Part shown: positions 1 to 14,448 of the stretch, one piece after another
Layout: each line of letters opens with the position of its first letter
Position numbering within the stretch: the stretch's first letter is position 1
Assembly (NCBI GenBank): GCA_030824835.1
Contig: JAPJRA010000013.1
Coordinates: forward strand, 1 to 18,397
DNA length: 18,397 bases
Source: Geminicoccaceae bacterium
GTDB lineage: Bacteria; Pseudomonadota; Alphaproteobacteria; Geminicoccales; Geminicoccaceae
Direction: 5' to 3'
Made by a program: the position numbers and the translations under genes
Notes under the pieces: model-generated
Seen by the model: only the letters and a program-made list of their open reading frames with translations
The model's database searches: none
Told to the model about the DNA's origin: nothing

Positions 1-313
1 GATTCGTGGCGTACCGATTGGCGGCGCAGTCGGACAGGCTGCCACCGCTTCTGGGAAACAGCCCGACACCCAGACTGACGTTCGAGGACAGCGAGCGCAG
101 CTTGCGTGGATTGGTGCCACTCATGTAGTTCAGCATGTTGCTCCAGTTGTCCCATGGCGCCCAGCCGGTCACCATCCCGAGCGGCGTGCCGCGCCATGCG
201 GCGAACTTGTCGGCTTCGACGCCGTTGGCTCCGGACCGCCAGGTAGGTTCCGCCGAGACCGTCTGGGCTGTCAGGCAGAGCAGCATGAAGGCTGCCAATA
301 TCGCGCGCATCAT
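1..313 (-). CDS. Secreted GH26-like glycoside hydrolase, N-terminal part (gene continues off the window)
   Basis: The first 104 codons are visible and the gene leaves the window at base 1. It starts at tandem ATG codons (313 and 310) preceded by a GGGGG ribosome binding site. Residues 1-21 form a signal peptide: a short n-region, the hydrophobic run AILAAFMLLCL and a likely cut after TVSA. The mature part begins TWRSGANGVEADKFAAWRG. It then has Trp-rich stretches (TGWAPWDNW) and a segment with LGVGLFPRSGGSLSDCA. This order (SG..G...F..WRG, then a strand, then a 'pLlP..gG.L..CA..' stretch) is what I remember from secreted GH26-type mannanase/endoglucanase-like proteins. The catalytic glutamates would lie outside the window, so activity cannot be judged. 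Likely role: hydrolysis of an extracytoplasmic polysaccharide. The family call is from remembered similarity only. Confidence 0.65.
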   Translation of the reverse strand, partial: MMRAILAAFMLLCLTAQTVSAEPTWRSGANGVEADKFAAWRGTPLGMVTGWAPWDNWSNMLNYMSGTNPRKLRSLSSNVSLGVGLFPRSGGSLSDCAANRYATN

Positions 314-738
314 CGGTTCCCCCGTCATAATGGAGCCGGTACATCTTCATGCACCTAAGTAGACCGACGGGCAGACTGGCTATTTCTTCCAGAAATTCAT
401 GAATAAAAAAGCCATTCTCTGAGGATATACTACTGTACGTATACAATAATTGGTTTGATATTAGGTAGAGCATACATCTTCAGATAATCAAGCTATCGGT
501 GTATTTCATGGAAGCTTCTGAGCTGTACCATAATACTGTCAAAGCAATCGAACGCATCCATGGCGAATTTTCGTCAATACCCGCTTGCCTCGCGGCCGCC
601 ATCGGAAGCCGGTATTCGGACAAGGTAACTTCGGATCGGTGCTATCCCGCTCAGCGCACCACCGACCGTCGGCACGGATGCCGCATGGACCCGGTATGCT
701 TGGCTCGTCCTCGTTGGGGAGGCGCGATGGAGCGGACT
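314..738. other. Intergenic stretch with AT-rich core
   Basis: This 425-base gap lies between the end of the Mrp operon and the start of the secreted hydrolase, both on the minus strand. Bases about 380-560 are much richer in A+T than the surroundings. They include a 10-base palindrome ATTCATGAAT at 395-404. The promoter of the hydrolase should lie here, but I cannot pick out a convincing -35/-10 pair. I see no clear terminator hairpin for the Mrp operon and no convincing gene; a plus-strand frame from 499 runs antisense into mnhG and has no recognisable content. Confidence 0.5.
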
Positions 739-8297: not shown

Positions 8298-8466
8298 TGG
8301 AAACTCCTTAGACCCCGCGCCGTCGGGTGCGACCCTAGCGGAATATGCCAAGCGCAGGCGAGAGCGGAAGTCCCGAGGTCGCTGCGGAACTCGGACCACA
8401 GACCTGGCCGGGGTGAAGAACCGGCAGCGCAACAGAGGATCTCTGCAAGATATCTCCTAATAATAA

Positions 8467-8495
8467 TTGAAAAATGTCGACGTAACTGATTTAAA
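8467..8495 (+). promoter_or_regulatory. Candidate sigma-70-type promoter for the first exported paralog
   Basis: TTGAAA (8467-8472) and TTTAAA (8490-8495) are 17 bases apart, matching -35 at 5/6 and -10 at 4/6. It lies inside the AT-rich island. If used, it would leave a leader of about 220 bases before the GTG start at 8722. AT-rich DNA gives chance matches, so this is tentative. Confidence 0.35.
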
Positions 8496-8561
8496 TTGGC
8501 AACATGGATAAAATAAAAAAGAAACCGATCTTCATATCAAGTCTAAATTAACTGTATGCAT

Positions 8562-8598
8562 GTCTATGACGTCTTATAGACTCGGTCGAATAATTCGA
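8562..8598. repeat. Two adjacent inverted repeats, possible operator
   Basis: GTCTAT (8562-8567) pairs with ATAGAC (8576-8581) across 8 bases. Four bases further on, TCGAAT (8586-8591) pairs with ATTCGA (8593-8598) around a single A. Both dyads are perfect 6-base arms. They lie in the leader of the exported gene at 8722, where a dimeric regulator could bind. No known regulator motif is recognised. Confidence 0.4.
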
Positions 8599-8707
8599 GA
8601 AATCGACAGACCGTGCGTTTGCTGCTGTGGCACTCGGCGGCGTTGCTTGATAGCGGCGTGCCCATGGGTAAATGCAAGTGCTTCAGCTCTGGCGAGAAAC
8701 AGATCGC

Positions 8708-8713
8708 AGAGGA
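8708..8713 (+). promoter_or_regulatory. Ribosome binding site that fixes a GTG start at 8722
   Basis: AGAGGA lies 8 bases upstream of GTG 8722. No in-frame ATG between here and the signal peptide core is equally placed. The resulting protein is 175 aa, exactly the length of the paralog at 11015, which supports this start. Confidence 0.7.
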
Positions 8714-8721
8714 AACAAGCA

Positions 8722-9249
8722 GTGCAAACCGGGGTCGACGTTCGTCCATCACCATCCGCGTCAGCTCTGGCGCGGAAGATCGTCATCGGTGCCCTGTGCA
8801 TCGGGGCGCTGGCTCTCGTGTCACCCATCGCTTCAACCGCAGCCATGGCCGATCAGGGTCTGGAGGGCCAAGAAGCCGTCGCGGCCGCGACCGACACGAG
8901 CGCCGAGCTGGAGAACAGCGTCGCGAGCGAGGCGGTGGCCGGCGTCACGCCGCAGGCCGTGGTGCGCAGCGCCTGCTTGCTGCCGTTCTTCAAGGTCACC
9001 TATCCGATATTCCTGAACGGCAAGGGCATTTTCCGCTTCGTGACGACGCCGAGGGCGCCGCCGAAAGGCTTCAACGTCGTGATGACGCTGAAATTTCCCG
9101 GGCTCAGCAGGAAGGTGAACAATTTTGGACCGGGCAAGGCCGAGACGTTCAACGTCAGGAAGACCTTTTCCGCCAAAGTCAACGGCAAGGTCACCATCTC
9201 GGGCGTCGACGGCTCCTATGGCTGCTTCGTTTTGAAGATCACGCCGTAA
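8722..9249 (+). CDS. Exported two-cysteine protein of unrecognised family, paralog 1
   Basis: I do not recognise this family. The GTG start gives 175 aa. Residues 1-43 look like a signal peptide: basic n-region ending RK at 18-19, core IVIGALCIGALALV, and AxA-type cut after AMA. Residues 44-73 form an acidic Ala/Glu/Thr-rich linker. From GVTP (74-77) to the end is a compact domain with Cys85 and Cys168 and short motifs LPFFKV, LNGKGIF, FPGL, VNGKVTISG and SYGCFVLK. It matches the protein at 11015-11542 at about 64 of 99 aligned positions by eye, with one 3-residue gap. The two cysteines could join the ends of the domain by a disulfide. Alternating hydrophobic residues suggest a beta-rich fold (inference). 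It faces rlmH and lies divergent from the ggt-family gene. Confidence 0.85.
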   Translation: MQTGVDVRPSPSASALARKIVIGALCIGALALVSPIASTAAMADQGLEGQEAVAAATDTSAELENSVASEAVAGVTPQAVVRSACLLPFFKVTYPIFLNGKGIFRFVTTPRAPPKGFNVVMTLKFPGLSRKVNNFGPGKAETFNVRKTFSAKVNGKVTISGVDGSYGCFVLKITP

Positions 9250-9264
9250 CGCGGTGGCGCCGCG
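9250..9264. terminator. Short GC hairpin between converging genes
   Basis: CGCGG (9250-9254) and CCGCG (9260-9264) form a perfect 5-base stem with a 5-base loop, directly after the TAA of the exported gene. The gap is only 57 bases and also holds the end of rlmH from the other strand. There is no T-run, so terminator function is a weak guess. Confidence 0.25.
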
Positions 9265-9306
9265 CGACCGGCGCCCCACCCCAGACCGCCGGCAACGGTC
9301 GGCTGG

Positions 9307-9765
9307 TCACCCGCGATGATAGGGGTGGCCGGCCAGGATCGTGGTCGCACGATAGAGCTGCTCGGCGAGCATCACGCGGACCAGACGGTGCGGCCACGTC
9401 AATCGGCCAAAGGCGATGCTGGCATCGGCCGCGGTCACGAGGTCGGGCGCCAGCCCGTCCGGGCCGCCGATCAGGAACGCCGCGGTCCGGCGGCCGCTGT
9501 CGCGCCACCTGCCGAGCTGACCGGCGAACTCCTCGCTCGAAGGATCCCGGCCGCGTTCATCCAGGGCCACGAGGGCGGCGCCGGCGGGCACCGCGCCGCG
9601 TAGCAGGCTGGCTTCGGCTTCCTTGCGGCGCTCTGGGGGGACGTTGCCGCGCGGCTGCACCTCGATCAGCCGGATCGGCCACGGACAGCGGCGGACATAG
9701 TCCGCAAAGAGGCTGTCGACCGGTGCGTCGCGACTGCGGCCCACCGCCACGACGAGCAGCTCCAA
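9307..9765 (-). CDS. rlmH: 23S rRNA (pseudouridine-1915 N3)-methyltransferase RlmH
   Basis: A 152-aa SPOUT-class methyltransferase that uses S-adenosylmethionine to methylate pseudouridine 1915 in helix 69 of 23S rRNA on assembled 70S ribosomes. Diagnostic elements are ALVALDERG (64-72), the cofactor-loop FLIGGPDG (97-104), the trefoil-knot helix around LTWPHRLVRVMLAEQLYRA (122-140), and the conserved end HPYHR (147-151). Length fits the family (about 155). It starts 6 bases after the rsfS stop and is the last gene of a nadD-rsfS-rlmH operon, a common order in alphaproteobacteria. It converges with the exported gene at 8722-9249. Confidence 0.97.
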   Translation of the reverse strand: MELLVVAVGRSRDAPVDSLFADYVRRCPWPIRLIEVQPRGNVPPERRKEAEASLLRGAVPAGAALVALDERGRDPSSEEFAGQLGRWRDSGRRTAAFLIGGPDGLAPDLVTAADASIAFGRLTWPHRLVRVMLAEQLYRATTILAGHPYHRG

Positions 9766-9771
9766 GCCGGC

Positions 9772-10200
9772 TCAGCCGGATGCCGCAGCCCGTCGCGGCG
9801 GCGCCACCGACCAGAGCTTCTCGATGTCGTAGAAGGACCGGGTCTCGGCGCGGAACAGGTGGACCAGAATGTCCCCGGCGTCGATCAGGATCCAGGTGCT
9901 GGCGGCATCCTCGAGGCCTTCGGCCTGCACGTAGGAATGACCGGAGGCCTTGACGCGCTCGATCAGCTTCTCGGCCATGGACGCGATATGGCGCTGCGAC
10001 GTTCCGGTGGCCACGACCATGAACTCGGCAAGCGTGGTCTTGCCGGCAAGATCGATGACCGCAGGATCGAGTGCCTTGTCGTCGTCGAGCGAGGCCAACA
10101 CGACTTGCAGCAACGGGCTCGGTGGATTGGCCGGCTCCGGCACGGTGCCGGTCGGTTCGGGCTCGGTAATGGTCCAGTCTCCTGTGCCGGTCTCAGCCAC
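9772..10200 (-). CDS. rsfS: Ribosomal silencing factor RsfS
   Basis: RsfS binds ribosomal protein uL14 and blocks subunit joining when nutrients are scarce. The conserved domain spans about residues 29-130 of 142: LLQVVLASLDDDKALD, VVATGTSQRHIASMAEKL, then WILIDAGDILVHLF and the closing FYDIEKLW. I set the start at GTG 10200. It has a GAGG six bases upstream and overlaps the nadD stop by 8 bases, suggesting coupling. Alternatives are GTG 10143 (123 aa) and an ATT following an AGGAG sequence near 10184; all keep the full domain. The longer open frame reaching into nadD is antisense-like and rejected. The first ~28 residues (Pro/Glu-rich) are outside the family domain. Confidence 0.93.
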   Translation of the reverse strand: MAETGTGDWTITEPEPTGTVPEPANPPSPLLQVVLASLDDDKALDPAVIDLAGKTTLAEFMVVATGTSQRHIASMAEKLIERVKASGHSYVQAEGLEDAASTWILIDAGDILVHLFRAETRSFYDIEKLWSVAPPRRAAASG

Positions 10201-10861
10201 CGCCGGCCTCGGTGCGTGCCCGGATAGCGGTCGCGGAGGCCGGGTGTGGACGCAGCCGGACAAAAGTCCAGGCTGGCAACGGACTGCCGACCAGCGTCCC
10301 GGCCTGTTGCTCCGGTACTCTCGCCGCACCAAACCCCCGCGCCACTGGTCCTGCCAGCGCAGCATAAGAATAGGGTTGCCGCTCGAAAACCGCAACTGGG
10401 CATGCGGCCAGGATATGCCGCCAGTGCCGCCAACGGGGCAATTGCGCGAGATTGTCGGCACCCATGAGCCAGACGAACCGATGGTCTGGCCACGCTGCCA
10501 GCCGTCGTAGCGTGTCCGCCGTGTAGCGTGTGCCGAGGCGGGCTTCCAATGTCAGCACCCGGATGCGCGGATGACGTGCGAGGTCAGCGGCCAGCGCAAC
10601 CCGCCTTGCCATGGGTGCCATGCCGGCGGTGGTCTTGAGCGGGTTCTGCGGCGACACCAGCCACCAGATCTGATCCAGCCCCAGCCGTTTGAACGCCTCC
10701 AGGCTGATATAGCGATGACCCGCGTGGGCCGGATTGAACGAGCCTCCGAGGAGACCAACCCGCAGCCGCTTCCGCCCCGCCTCCACGGGTTGGAGGTCAT
10801 CGGTTGGGACGAGGCGTGCGACCGGGCGGCGTAACATCCTGGGCTCGCACAGCGCAGTCAT
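10193..10861 (-). CDS. nadD: Nicotinate-mononucleotide adenylyltransferase NadD
   Basis: Makes deamido-NAD from nicotinate mononucleotide and ATP, a step of NAD synthesis. Residues 35-49 hold the nucleotidyltransferase motif: VGLLGGSFNPAHAGH, with the two catalytic-site histidines. PQNPLK (71-76), MGADN (133-137) and the C-terminal ATP-binding SATAIR (209-214, replacing the usual ISSTxIR) follow. The protein ends only 8 residues after this motif, a little shorter than many homologs. ATG 10861 gives 222 aa but has no good ribosome binding site. ATG 10837 is possible; either leaves an N-terminal extension of 25-33 residues before the core. It is first in the nadD-rsfS-rlmH operon. In many relatives it directly follows proA; here an oppositely oriented exported gene intervenes. 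Confidence 0.95.
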   Translation of the reverse strand: MTALCEPRMLRRPVARLVPTDDLQPVEAGRKRLRVGLLGGSFNPAHAGHRYISLEAFKRLGLDQIWWLVSPQNPLKTTAGMAPMARRVALAADLARHPRIRVLTLEARLGTRYTADTLRRLAAWPDHRFVWLMGADNLAQLPRWRHWRHILAACPVAVFERQPYSYAALAGPVARGFGAARVPEQQAGTLVGSPLPAWTFVRLRPHPASATAIRARTEAGGG

Positions 10862-11014
10862 GGGCTGCGCTGCGGGCACATCGCCCGGGTGATGCGTGGG
10901 ACAGATGCAATACTCGTCGCGGCTGACGACACAGTAACGAAACACGACGGCCACATGTTTGCGCGGTCGCCGGTGATCGGCGCCAACGACTTGAAATGTA
11001 AAGGATAGTCAGTC

Positions 11015-11542
11015 ATGTCGAGCAAGATCCTCGCATTGCGTGCCCATGCTCGTTGGGCTTCGCTCGTGGCGTTGACCGCCGTGGCCGTAGCGACAATGCC
11101 GTCGGCTGCCGGTGCCGCCGGCAAGGAGGCCCAGGTTCTGAAGGGCGAGGGGAACAACTCGACCGTCAAGCTGCCGGCCAAGTCGCTCGGCCCCGAGAGC
11201 TTCAAGGAACTCGCCAACGGGGCCGAGACCGAGGCAACCGGCGGTGTCACACCCATGGCGGTCACCCGCGCCGCCTGCATTCTGCCTTTCAGCAAGGTGA
11301 AGTATCCGATCAGCCTCAATGGCAAAGGCATCTTCGCGTTCACCACGACACCATCGCGCAAGTTCGATGTGGTGATGACGATCGATTTCCCCGGCCTTCA
11401 TAAGCGGGTGGATAACTACTATGCGGGCGGTATCGAGCGCTACCTGGTCAAGAAGAACTTCACCGCGAGGGTCAACGGCAAGGTTACGATCTCTGGTTTC
11501 GGCAACTCCTACGGCTGCTTTGTGCTGAAGGTCACCCCCTGA
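11015..11542 (+). CDS. Exported two-cysteine protein of unrecognised family, paralog 2
   Basis: Sister of the gene at 8722 and likewise 175 aa; family unknown to me. ATG 11015 has an AAGGA site 10 bases upstream. Residues 1-35 form a signal peptide: basic start (K4, R9, R13), hydrophobic core LVALTAVAVA, likely cut near AAGA. A polar linker of about 40 residues (36-76) shares almost nothing with its paralog. From GVTP (77-80) the conserved domain begins: Cys88, LPFSKVKYPI, LNGKGIFAF, VVMTIDFPGL, VNGKVTISG and SYGCFVLK with Cys168. The domain is 3 residues shorter than in paralog 1. The gene is divergent from nadD (153-base spacer) and converges on proA, so it interrupts what is normally a proA-nadD run. 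Confidence 0.87.
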   Translation: MSSKILALRAHARWASLVALTAVAVATMPSAAGAAGKEAQVLKGEGNNSTVKLPAKSLGPESFKELANGAETEATGGVTPMAVTRAACILPFSKVKYPISLNGKGIFAFTTTPSRKFDVVMTIDFPGLHKRVDNYYAGGIERYLVKKNFTARVNGKVTISGFGNSYGCFVLKVTP

Positions 11543-11573
11543 CGCCGGCCTGGCTCCGCTGCACCGACGAGCT

Positions 11574-11587
11574 GGCCAGAGCTGGCC
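11574..11587. terminator. Hairpin between converging genes
   Basis: GGCCAG (11574-11579) and CTGGCC (11582-11587) form a perfect 6-base inverted repeat around AG. It lies in the 47-base gap between the end of the second exported paralog (+) and the end of proA (-), where it could serve both strands. The loop is too tight for the full stem to form and there is no T-run. Confidence 0.3.
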
Positions 11588-11589
11588 CA

Positions 11590-12870
11590 TCAACCGGGCC
11601 GGGTCTGGCCGGTGCCCCGCACCACATACTTGTAGCTGGTGAGCTGCTCGACGCCGACCGGCCCACGGGCATGGAGCCGGCCGGTTGCGATGCCGATCTC
11701 CGCACCCATGCCGAACTCGCCGCCATCGGCAAACTGAGTGCTGGCATTGTGGATGACGATGGCACTGTCGACCTCGCGCAGGAACCGGCCCGCCGCATCG
11801 CCGTCGGCCGCGACGATCGCGTCGGTGTGGTGCGAACCGTAGTGGTTGACGTGAGCGATGGCCTCGTCGAGCCCAGCCACCGTCTTCACCGCCAGGACAG
11901 CATCGAGATACTCGGTGTACCAATCCTGCTCGGTGGCTGCCGCAGCGTGAGGCTCGAGCCGTCGCACCACGTCGTCGCCACGGATCGCGCAGCCGGCAGC
12001 GATCAGAGCCTGCAGAATAGGCGGCAGCAGACGCTCTGCGGCGTCGCGGTCGACCAGCAGCGTCTCCGTTGCGCCGCATACTCCGGTCCGCCGCATCTTG
12101 CCATTGACGGCGAGCTCGACGGCCATGGTGGAATCGGCCGTGCCGTGCACGTACAGATGGCAGTTGCCTTCGAGATGCGCCAATACCGGCACCCGGCTCT
12201 CGGCCAGGACCCGCTCTATCAGCGAGCGGCCGCCCCGGGGCACGATGACGTCGATATGCTCGCTCATCCGCAGCAGCATCCCGACAGCGGCACGGTCGGT
12301 GGTCGGCACGAGTTGGATCGCCGTCGATGGCAGGTCAGCCACCGAGAGGCCGTGCGCCAGCGCGGCGCCGATCGCCTGCGCGGAATGGAAGCTTTCCGAG
12401 CCGCCCCGCAACACGGCAGCGTTGCCGGCCTTGAGGCACAAGGCACCGGCATCGGCGGTGACGTTCGGACGGCTTTCATAGATGATCCCGATGACGCCCA
12501 GGGGGACGCGTACCCTGGCGATGTCCAGCCCGTTCGGCTGGCTCCAGCGGGCGAGCTCGGTGCCGATCGGGTCGTCCAGCGCGGCGATCGTCTCCAGGCC
12601 TACGGCCATGGCTTCGACGCGCTTGGGATCGAGCTGCAGTCGATCGAGCATGGCGCCGGCCAGGTTTTTGGCGCGGGCAGCCGCCATGTCGCGGGCGTTG
12701 GCCGCCAGGATAGTGGATGCACCGTCACGCAACGCCGCAGCCGCGGCCCGAAGGGCCGTGTCCTTGGCTGACCGTGGCGCCTGGGCCAGTATTTGCGCCG
12801 CAGCCCTGGCCGCATCGCCCAGGGCCTGCATTTCCTTCTCGAGCTCGACTTTCAATACGGTCGCCATCAT
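11590..12870 (-). CDS. proA: Gamma-glutamyl phosphate reductase ProA
   Basis: Second enzyme of proline synthesis: NADPH-dependent reduction of glutamyl-5-phosphate to glutamate-5-semialdehyde in the cytoplasm. It has 426 aa (E. coli about 417). Landmarks are VPLGVIGIIYESRPNVTADA (122-141), KAGNAAVLRGGSE (147-159), PRGGRSLI (211-218) and the catalytic Cys265 in RTGVCGATETLLVD. GGEFGMGAEIGIATGRLHARGP is present near 383-404, quoted here only as a landmark region. ProA is a member of the aldehyde dehydrogenase superfamily. I use the first of two ATGs (12870/12867), which has GGGA six bases upstream; ATG 12882 is possible. The usual partner proB is not adjacent. It converges with the second exported paralog. 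Confidence 0.97.
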   Translation of the reverse strand: MMATVLKVELEKEMQALGDAARAAAQILAQAPRSAKDTALRAAAAALRDGASTILAANARDMAAARAKNLAGAMLDRLQLDPKRVEAMAVGLETIAALDDPIGTELARWSQPNGLDIARVRVPLGVIGIIYESRPNVTADAGALCLKAGNAAVLRGGSESFHSAQAIGAALAHGLSVADLPSTAIQLVPTTDRAAVGMLLRMSEHIDVIVPRGGRSLIERVLAESRVPVLAHLEGNCHLYVHGTADSTMAVELAVNGKMRRTGVCGATETLLVDRDAAERLLPPILQALIAAGCAIRGDDVVRRLEPHAAAATEQDWYTEYLDAVLAVKTVAGLDEAIAHVNHYGSHHTDAIVAADGDAAGRFLREVDSAIVIHNASTQFADGGEFGMGAEIGIATGRLHARGPVGVEQLTSYKYVVRGTGQTRPG

Positions 12871-14067: not shown

Positions 14068-14343
14068 CTACCGGTCGGTGTGACCCAGGTCGCGGTTCGG
14101 ATCGAGCTGGTCCCGGATACGCTGCTTCAGTGCCTTGGCGTCGGGAAAACCCCCATCGCGCCGGCGTTCCCAGATGGAGATGTCGTCGTAGCGGATCTCG
14201 AAAGCGCCACCGGTGCCGGGTAGGAGGGCGACCTCCCCCAAATCCTCGGCGAAAGTGGTGAGCAGCTCCTGCGCCATCCAGGCCGCGCGCAGTAGCCAAT
14301 TGCATTGACGACAGTAGAGGATGGTTACCCGGGGCTTGCTCAT
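14068..14343 (-). CDS. SelT/SelW/SelH (Rdx) family thioredoxin-like protein
   Basis: A 91-aa protein beginning VTILYCRQCNWLLRAAWMAQEL, read here as two parts: VTILYCRQCNW (6-16) and LLRAAWMAQELL. It has the CxxC redox motif at Cys11-Cys14, where animal SelW carries Cys-x-x-Sec. FEIRYDDISIWERRRDGGFPDA, near residues 51-72, is the other family landmark (sequence ending with the GFP(D/E)xKxLKQR helix). Bacterial members have no settled function; a thiol-redox role is inferred from the fold. ATG 14343 gives the standard family N-terminus. An upstream extension is Arg/Ala-rich and rejected. The ribosome binding site is weak. It lies downstream of the SRPBCC gene on the same strand with a 105-base gap containing a hairpin. 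Confidence 0.92.
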   Translation of the reverse strand: MSKPRVTILYCRQCNWLLRAAWMAQELLTTFAEDLGEVALLPGTGGAFEIRYDDISIWERRRDGGFPDAKALKQRIRDQLDPNRDLGHTDR

Positions 14344-14398
14344 CGCTGAAGTCCAGGCGCCAAAAGCATCGTGCGGTGCTGCCTGCGCACGAGGTGCG

Positions 14399-14430
14399 GC
14401 CTCTCGCGCTCGCCCATGAACGCGCGAGGC
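14399..14430 (-). terminator. Imperfect hairpin after the SRPBCC gene
   Basis: GCCTCTCGCG (14399-14408) pairs with CGCGCGAGGC (14421-14430) over 9 of 10 positions, with a 12-base loop. It lies 18 bases beyond the SRPBCC stop on the minus strand and before the SelW-like start. There is no clear T-run. Confidence 0.4.
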
Positions 14431-14448
14431 CGGCACGATAGGGCGAGC

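Follow-up and report, generated by a model that had tools for sequence, protein, structure and literature searches.

Genes A and B, two neighbouring genes for small, strongly basic proteins of one family, lie in an 18,397-nucleotide stretch of the Geminicoccaceae bacterium contig JAPJRA010000013.1 (the window), and are most simply explained by a duplication older than the lineages sampled. Judged from sequence comparison, the family appears to be rarely seen and undescribed, and to consist of two old branches, A-type and B-type. The core of both proteins is predicted to be an eight-stranded beta-sandwich of the PPC/collagen-binding/GOLD type, and A and B probably fold like the terminal binding domains of some secreted enzymes. 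The best explanation of the whole, in which we place somewhat less than even confidence, is that A and B are paralogues that separated long ago, in a family of narrow distribution whose proteins would be exported, tied by a disulphide, bind polyanions and be kept as a pair.

The two proteins share 82 of 169 aligned residues (BLASTP expectation value (E) 5e-49). From residue 74 of A onward, 64 of 99 positions are identical, the same count that a first-pass annotation of this DNA had reached by eye. Its other descriptions also held up: both proteins have 175 residues and carry the motifs LNGKGIF, VNGKVTISG and SYGCFVLK, the two cysteines are invariant, and the proteins are likely exported paralogues. 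It had, in addition, suggested a local duplication and possibly an expanding family; the comparison with relatives supports neither a recent duplication nor an expansion. In DNA, the similarity between A and B (66%) covers 8914-9263 and 11216-11559, which is the coding core and a few bases beyond the stop codon; other matches between 8301-9700 and 10801-12000 had an E of 0.72 or worse, and duplicated flanks were not seen. Within the core, the two genes differ at 28 first, 26 second and 48 third codon positions. In an unrooted tree of 17 cores (8 A-type and 9 B-type), the A and B rows are separated by one branch with support 100/99; of the 14 inner branches, only one other is well supported. 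P0019, which has an internal deletion, entered the cysteine count and the pairwise identities, but neither the tree nor the conserved-charge count given below. Core identities average 0.78 among A rows (36 pairs) and 0.75 among B rows (36 pairs), against 0.60 when A is compared with B (81 pairs), and the four A/B pairs from one contig or window lie at 0.55 to 0.65. Because of the A/B split, the low identity between neighbours and the confinement of DNA similarity to the core, the duplication is most simply placed before the sampled lineages. A recent duplication is rejected in view of the core identities, the tree and the absence of common flanks. The midpoint of the tree, which served for drawing only, lies within B. 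Were this the true root, A would have arisen within B, but the clusters that apparently share contigs would still require A to predate those lineages.

Relatives were collected by protein searches over about 5.8 billion proteins, with one single-sequence round and two profile rounds, the latter scoring only the roughly 8,000 candidates with most words in common. The search takes lengths of 0.55-1.75 times the query only, so that larger fused relatives cannot appear. These rounds found 12, 17 and 18 clusters, all of one family and none with a precomputed Pfam label. Two clusters were set aside: P0012, which is the window's own A called from a later start, and P0020, which is P0018 with a frameshift. 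Alignment A2 then contained 18 rows, 9 A-type and 9 B-type; two are the window proteins and 16 come from elsewhere. Three further A/B pairs have longest contigs of equal size, P0010/P0018 (87523), P0007/P0016 (6044) and P0006/P0014 (5842), which suggests, without proving it, that one A and one B share a contig in each case; the counts are of clusters, not genomes, and contig sharing is read from these equal sizes. Among the 18 aligned members, neither the 9:9 division nor the contigs that probably carry one A and one B each support an expanding family.

Two scans of the GTDB r220 species genomes hit 193 and 100 pattern stretches; at E 1e-3, none of these encodes a relative, and 31 pattern stretches in viral contigs contained no relative. 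No plasmid match was obtained by tblastn with P0010, and the single match of the A2 profile in six plasmid records (E 0.22, profile positions 12-68) was attributed to chance. The same was concluded for the single hit (E 0.16) of a 13-row profile, A1, in a PDB sequence search and for the six families (best E 0.069) returned by a Pfam scan of the 18 members. Searching A and B against Pfam and NCBIfam with hmmscan returned nothing significant, four members gave nothing in PHROGs and PADLOC at E up to 1, and two family motif strings were absent from the literature searched (openly licensed papers only). The family thus remains unrecognised by sequence, as had been claimed, whereas its predicted fold is a known one.

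Both N-termini have a basic stretch followed by a hydrophobic segment, with Kyte-Doolittle 15-residue maxima of 2.64 at residue 20 (A) and 1.87 at residue 14 (B). A and B would be secreted via Sec, and signal peptidase I would cut them at the putative sites listed in Table 1, which were read by inspection; the mature protein would then consist of a flexible tail followed by a core of some 100 residues. The tail of B has a net charge of -1 over residues 36-76 and, like that of A, low model confidence. The GTG start of gene A is supported by a relative, P0011, whose N-terminal alignment with A begins at this residue; AGAGG (8708-8712) is found nine bases before the start, and AAAGGA precedes gene B (11000-11005). 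Start positions of A-type members vary among automatic gene calls: the database call for A (P0012, 134 residues) uses a later ATG, thereby losing the signal peptide (window 8722-8844), and P0014 (213 residues) seems to be called too long.

The two core cysteines are kept in 18/18 aligned members, and would form one disulphide tying the ends of the sandwich. An extra cysteine occurs in seven of the 18, always in or before the presumed signal peptide (placed by inspection). The 17 full cores are strongly basic, with isoelectric points (pI) of 9.9 to 10.7, and charge is conserved (in at least 80% of 17 rows) at eight basic and one acidic core columns and at three acidic tail columns. The conserved lysines and arginines of the core may, with less certainty than the export and the disulphide, bind an anionic polymer of the envelope or the surroundings, candidates being lipopolysaccharide, peptidoglycan, acidic polysaccharide and extracellular DNA. 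As a caution, a pI above 10 is also found in 3 of 18 other window proteins. A and B would act as free-standing binding domains, not enzymes, and would be kept as a pair through different or complementary jobs.

The comparison with PPC domains (PF04151) rests on the fold: the predicted models have the eight-stranded beta-sandwich, the only PPC property found in them. The PPC sequence profile matched 0/18 members at E up to 10, HMMER filters dropping most matches above about E 0.1. With hhalign, the family scored 12.7 against 18 PPC domains, while 100 column shuffles had a median of 10.1 and a top five of 13.9-19.0, and the reversed profile reached 12.2; these domains came from four plasmid records; several belong to a single protein, and two fall below the Pfam cut-off. 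A 12-sequence PPC subgroup, picked after looking, scored 12.9, which 20/200 shuffles reached, with one aligned column reported. Both hhalign comparisons being negative, PPC family membership by sequence is rejected, and we therefore speak of a PPC-like fold. The subgroup (L004, L005, L021, L025 and L027-L034) has a common DFDLxL ... YSGSGxYxL-like pattern, its members, where they carry an annotation, being labelled peptidases or hydrolases; the pattern occurs in Deinococcus, Pseudoalteromonas and actinomycetes. Weaker instances come from Eleftheria (E 0.04) and Halococcus (E 0.2), and L005 and L025 are under the PF04151 cut-off.

Several further properties set A and B apart from PPC domains. 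PPC domains are usually C-terminal on a secreted peptidase, whereas A and B are stand-alone genes without one. The pI is below 7 in 16/18 fetched PPC domains (8.66 and 9.46 in the other two), unlike in the A/B family, which also has two invariant cysteines, one in the first core strand and one in the last. Some PPC domains bind collagen or another insoluble polymer: the C-terminal segment of Grimontia collagenase binds triple-helical collagen, and its primary structure is described as completely different from that of the Hathewaya domains (PMC6168687). Binding domains of the PPC kind can thus lose sequence similarity. A BFVD fold search gave 10 matches at E <=0.001 with query template-modelling (TM) scores of 0.31-0.39. 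The GOLD domains of p24/TMED and ACBD3, eukaryotic trafficking proteins, share 3-11% identity with A and B in the fold-match rows and have no functional link to them. Fold matches also raise the idea that A and B are secreted enzymes or toxins on the common beta-sandwich scaffold. This is very improbable: such rows rank below the best PPC rows with 4-14% identity, and the conserved charged core columns, eight basic and one acidic, contain no evident catalytic set.

Other small secreted proteins offer a different comparison. The periplasmic lysozyme inhibitors PliG, PliI and MliC/PliC and the Neisseria ACP protein resemble A and B in having a signal peptide and a single small beta domain, and in ACP and MliC/PliC a disulphide links the first and last strands (PMC5507604). 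A and B could be small periplasmic inhibitors of peptidoglycan-cleaving enzymes that plug a lysozyme-like active site, each against a different target, which we consider unlikely. The same paper places an SxSGAxY motif in the inhibitory loop of PliG/PliI/MliC (PMC5507604); alignment A2 lacks it and has SG-x4-Y, whose S, G and Y are the same in all 18 rows.

A second role to weigh is structural, with A and B as subunits that jointly build a surface layer or fibre in which the conserved N-terminal tail pairs with the next sandwich. The balanced 9:9 presence and the likely same-contig pairs favour it, as do the retention of L-x-G-like and E-L-x-N-like positions in the tail, a short predicted strand at residues 47-51 of A, and the presence of Bacillus endospore appendage (Ena) subunits among the Foldseek matches. 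However, those matches have query TM scores of 0.19-0.25 and a root-mean-square deviation of 9-13, and the tail is modelled with low confidence. Ena subunits have an N-terminal connector with a cross-linking cysteine, whereas none lies between signal peptide and core in 18/18 members (signal boundary by inspection; P0013, P0018 and P0019 as called miss part or all of the N-terminus). We consider a structural role unlikely. A bolder reading, to which we likewise give little credence, makes A and B obligate partners in a two-part exported system: two disulphide-stapled cationic sandwiches with different specialisations, the acidic tail of one joining the basic face of the other. The assembly would be a surface layer or a complex that binds polymers, and would occur in a single lineage, apparently alphaproteobacterial and little sampled. 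Polymer binding by A and B as free-standing domains is the explanation that we prefer.

Table 1. Features of genes A and B in the window
Feature	Position	Strand	Description
Gene A	8722-9249	+	A-type paralogue, 175 amino acids and stop, GTG start
Likely Sec signal peptide of A	8722-8850	+	Residues 1-43, putative site between AMA and DQ; by inspection
Acidic low-confidence tail of A	8851-8940	+	Residues 44-73; net charge -6 over 45-73
Beta-sandwich core of A	8941-9246	+	Residues 74-175, predicted; net charge +13
Cys85 of A	8974-8976	+	First core strand of model
Cys168 of A	9223-9225	+	Last core strand of model
Gene B	11015-11542	+	B-type paralogue, 175 amino acids and stop, ATG start
Likely Sec signal peptide of B	11015-11116	+	About residues 1-34, putative site between AGA and AG; by inspection
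Beta-sandwich core of B	11243-11539	+	Residues 77-175, predicted; net charge +10
Cys88 of B	11276-11278	+	First core strand of model
Cys168 of B	11516-11518	+	Last core strand of model

The genes around A and B are ordinary: a gamma-glutamyltransferase, RlmH (SPOUT methyltransferase), RsfS, a NadD-type cytidylyltransferase and an aldehyde-dehydrogenase family protein reading as ProA, the names ProA and NadD being taken from annotated database matches. Gene B is placed between proA and nadD, antisense to both. These two genes are adjacent in 8/8 records listed for both (8 of the 10 listed for proA), with gaps of 83-113 bases compared with 854 in the window; the records are not independent, comprising four Sinorhizobium, two Rhizobium, one Shinella and one Methylobacterium. 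The best reading is therefore that gene B was inserted between two genes that otherwise stand close together. Counted in frame, the guanine-plus-cytosine (GC) content at third positions is 0.82 (A) and 0.81 (B), within the 0.77-0.85 of six neighbouring genes, whereas at first positions it is 0.57 and 0.54, below their 0.72-0.77. A scan of 8300-11700 gave one promoter-like site (0.3 expected), located in an AT-rich stretch upstream of A (8460-8600), and two terminator-like sites (2.4 expected); neither result was used. An Rfam search of the window gave zero matches. Farther out are an MnhG-type antiporter subunit, a b-type cytochrome, a polyketide-cyclase-like protein, a DUF1127 protein and an Rdx-family protein with a CRQC motif (14068-14436, minus strand), which we take to be a relative of SelT/SelW/SelH-type proteins; the window also encodes a protein matching antiporter subunit A. 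By genus, 9 of the 10 records listed for proA and 8/8 of those listed for the antiporter subunit A match belong to the Alphaproteobacteria, which makes the window probably alphaproteobacterial. At the edge of the window (2-328, minus strand), an open frame with an export-type N-terminus begins and runs past the end of the sequence.

For the family, these results mean that a set of unannotated sequences can be given a likely fold and properties open to testing (cationic, single disulphide, exported); an old, balanced pair takes the place of a recent expansion as the reading. If A and B do bind a polymer of the envelope, they would be an example of a PPC-like domain that works alone, not as the appendage of an enzyme.
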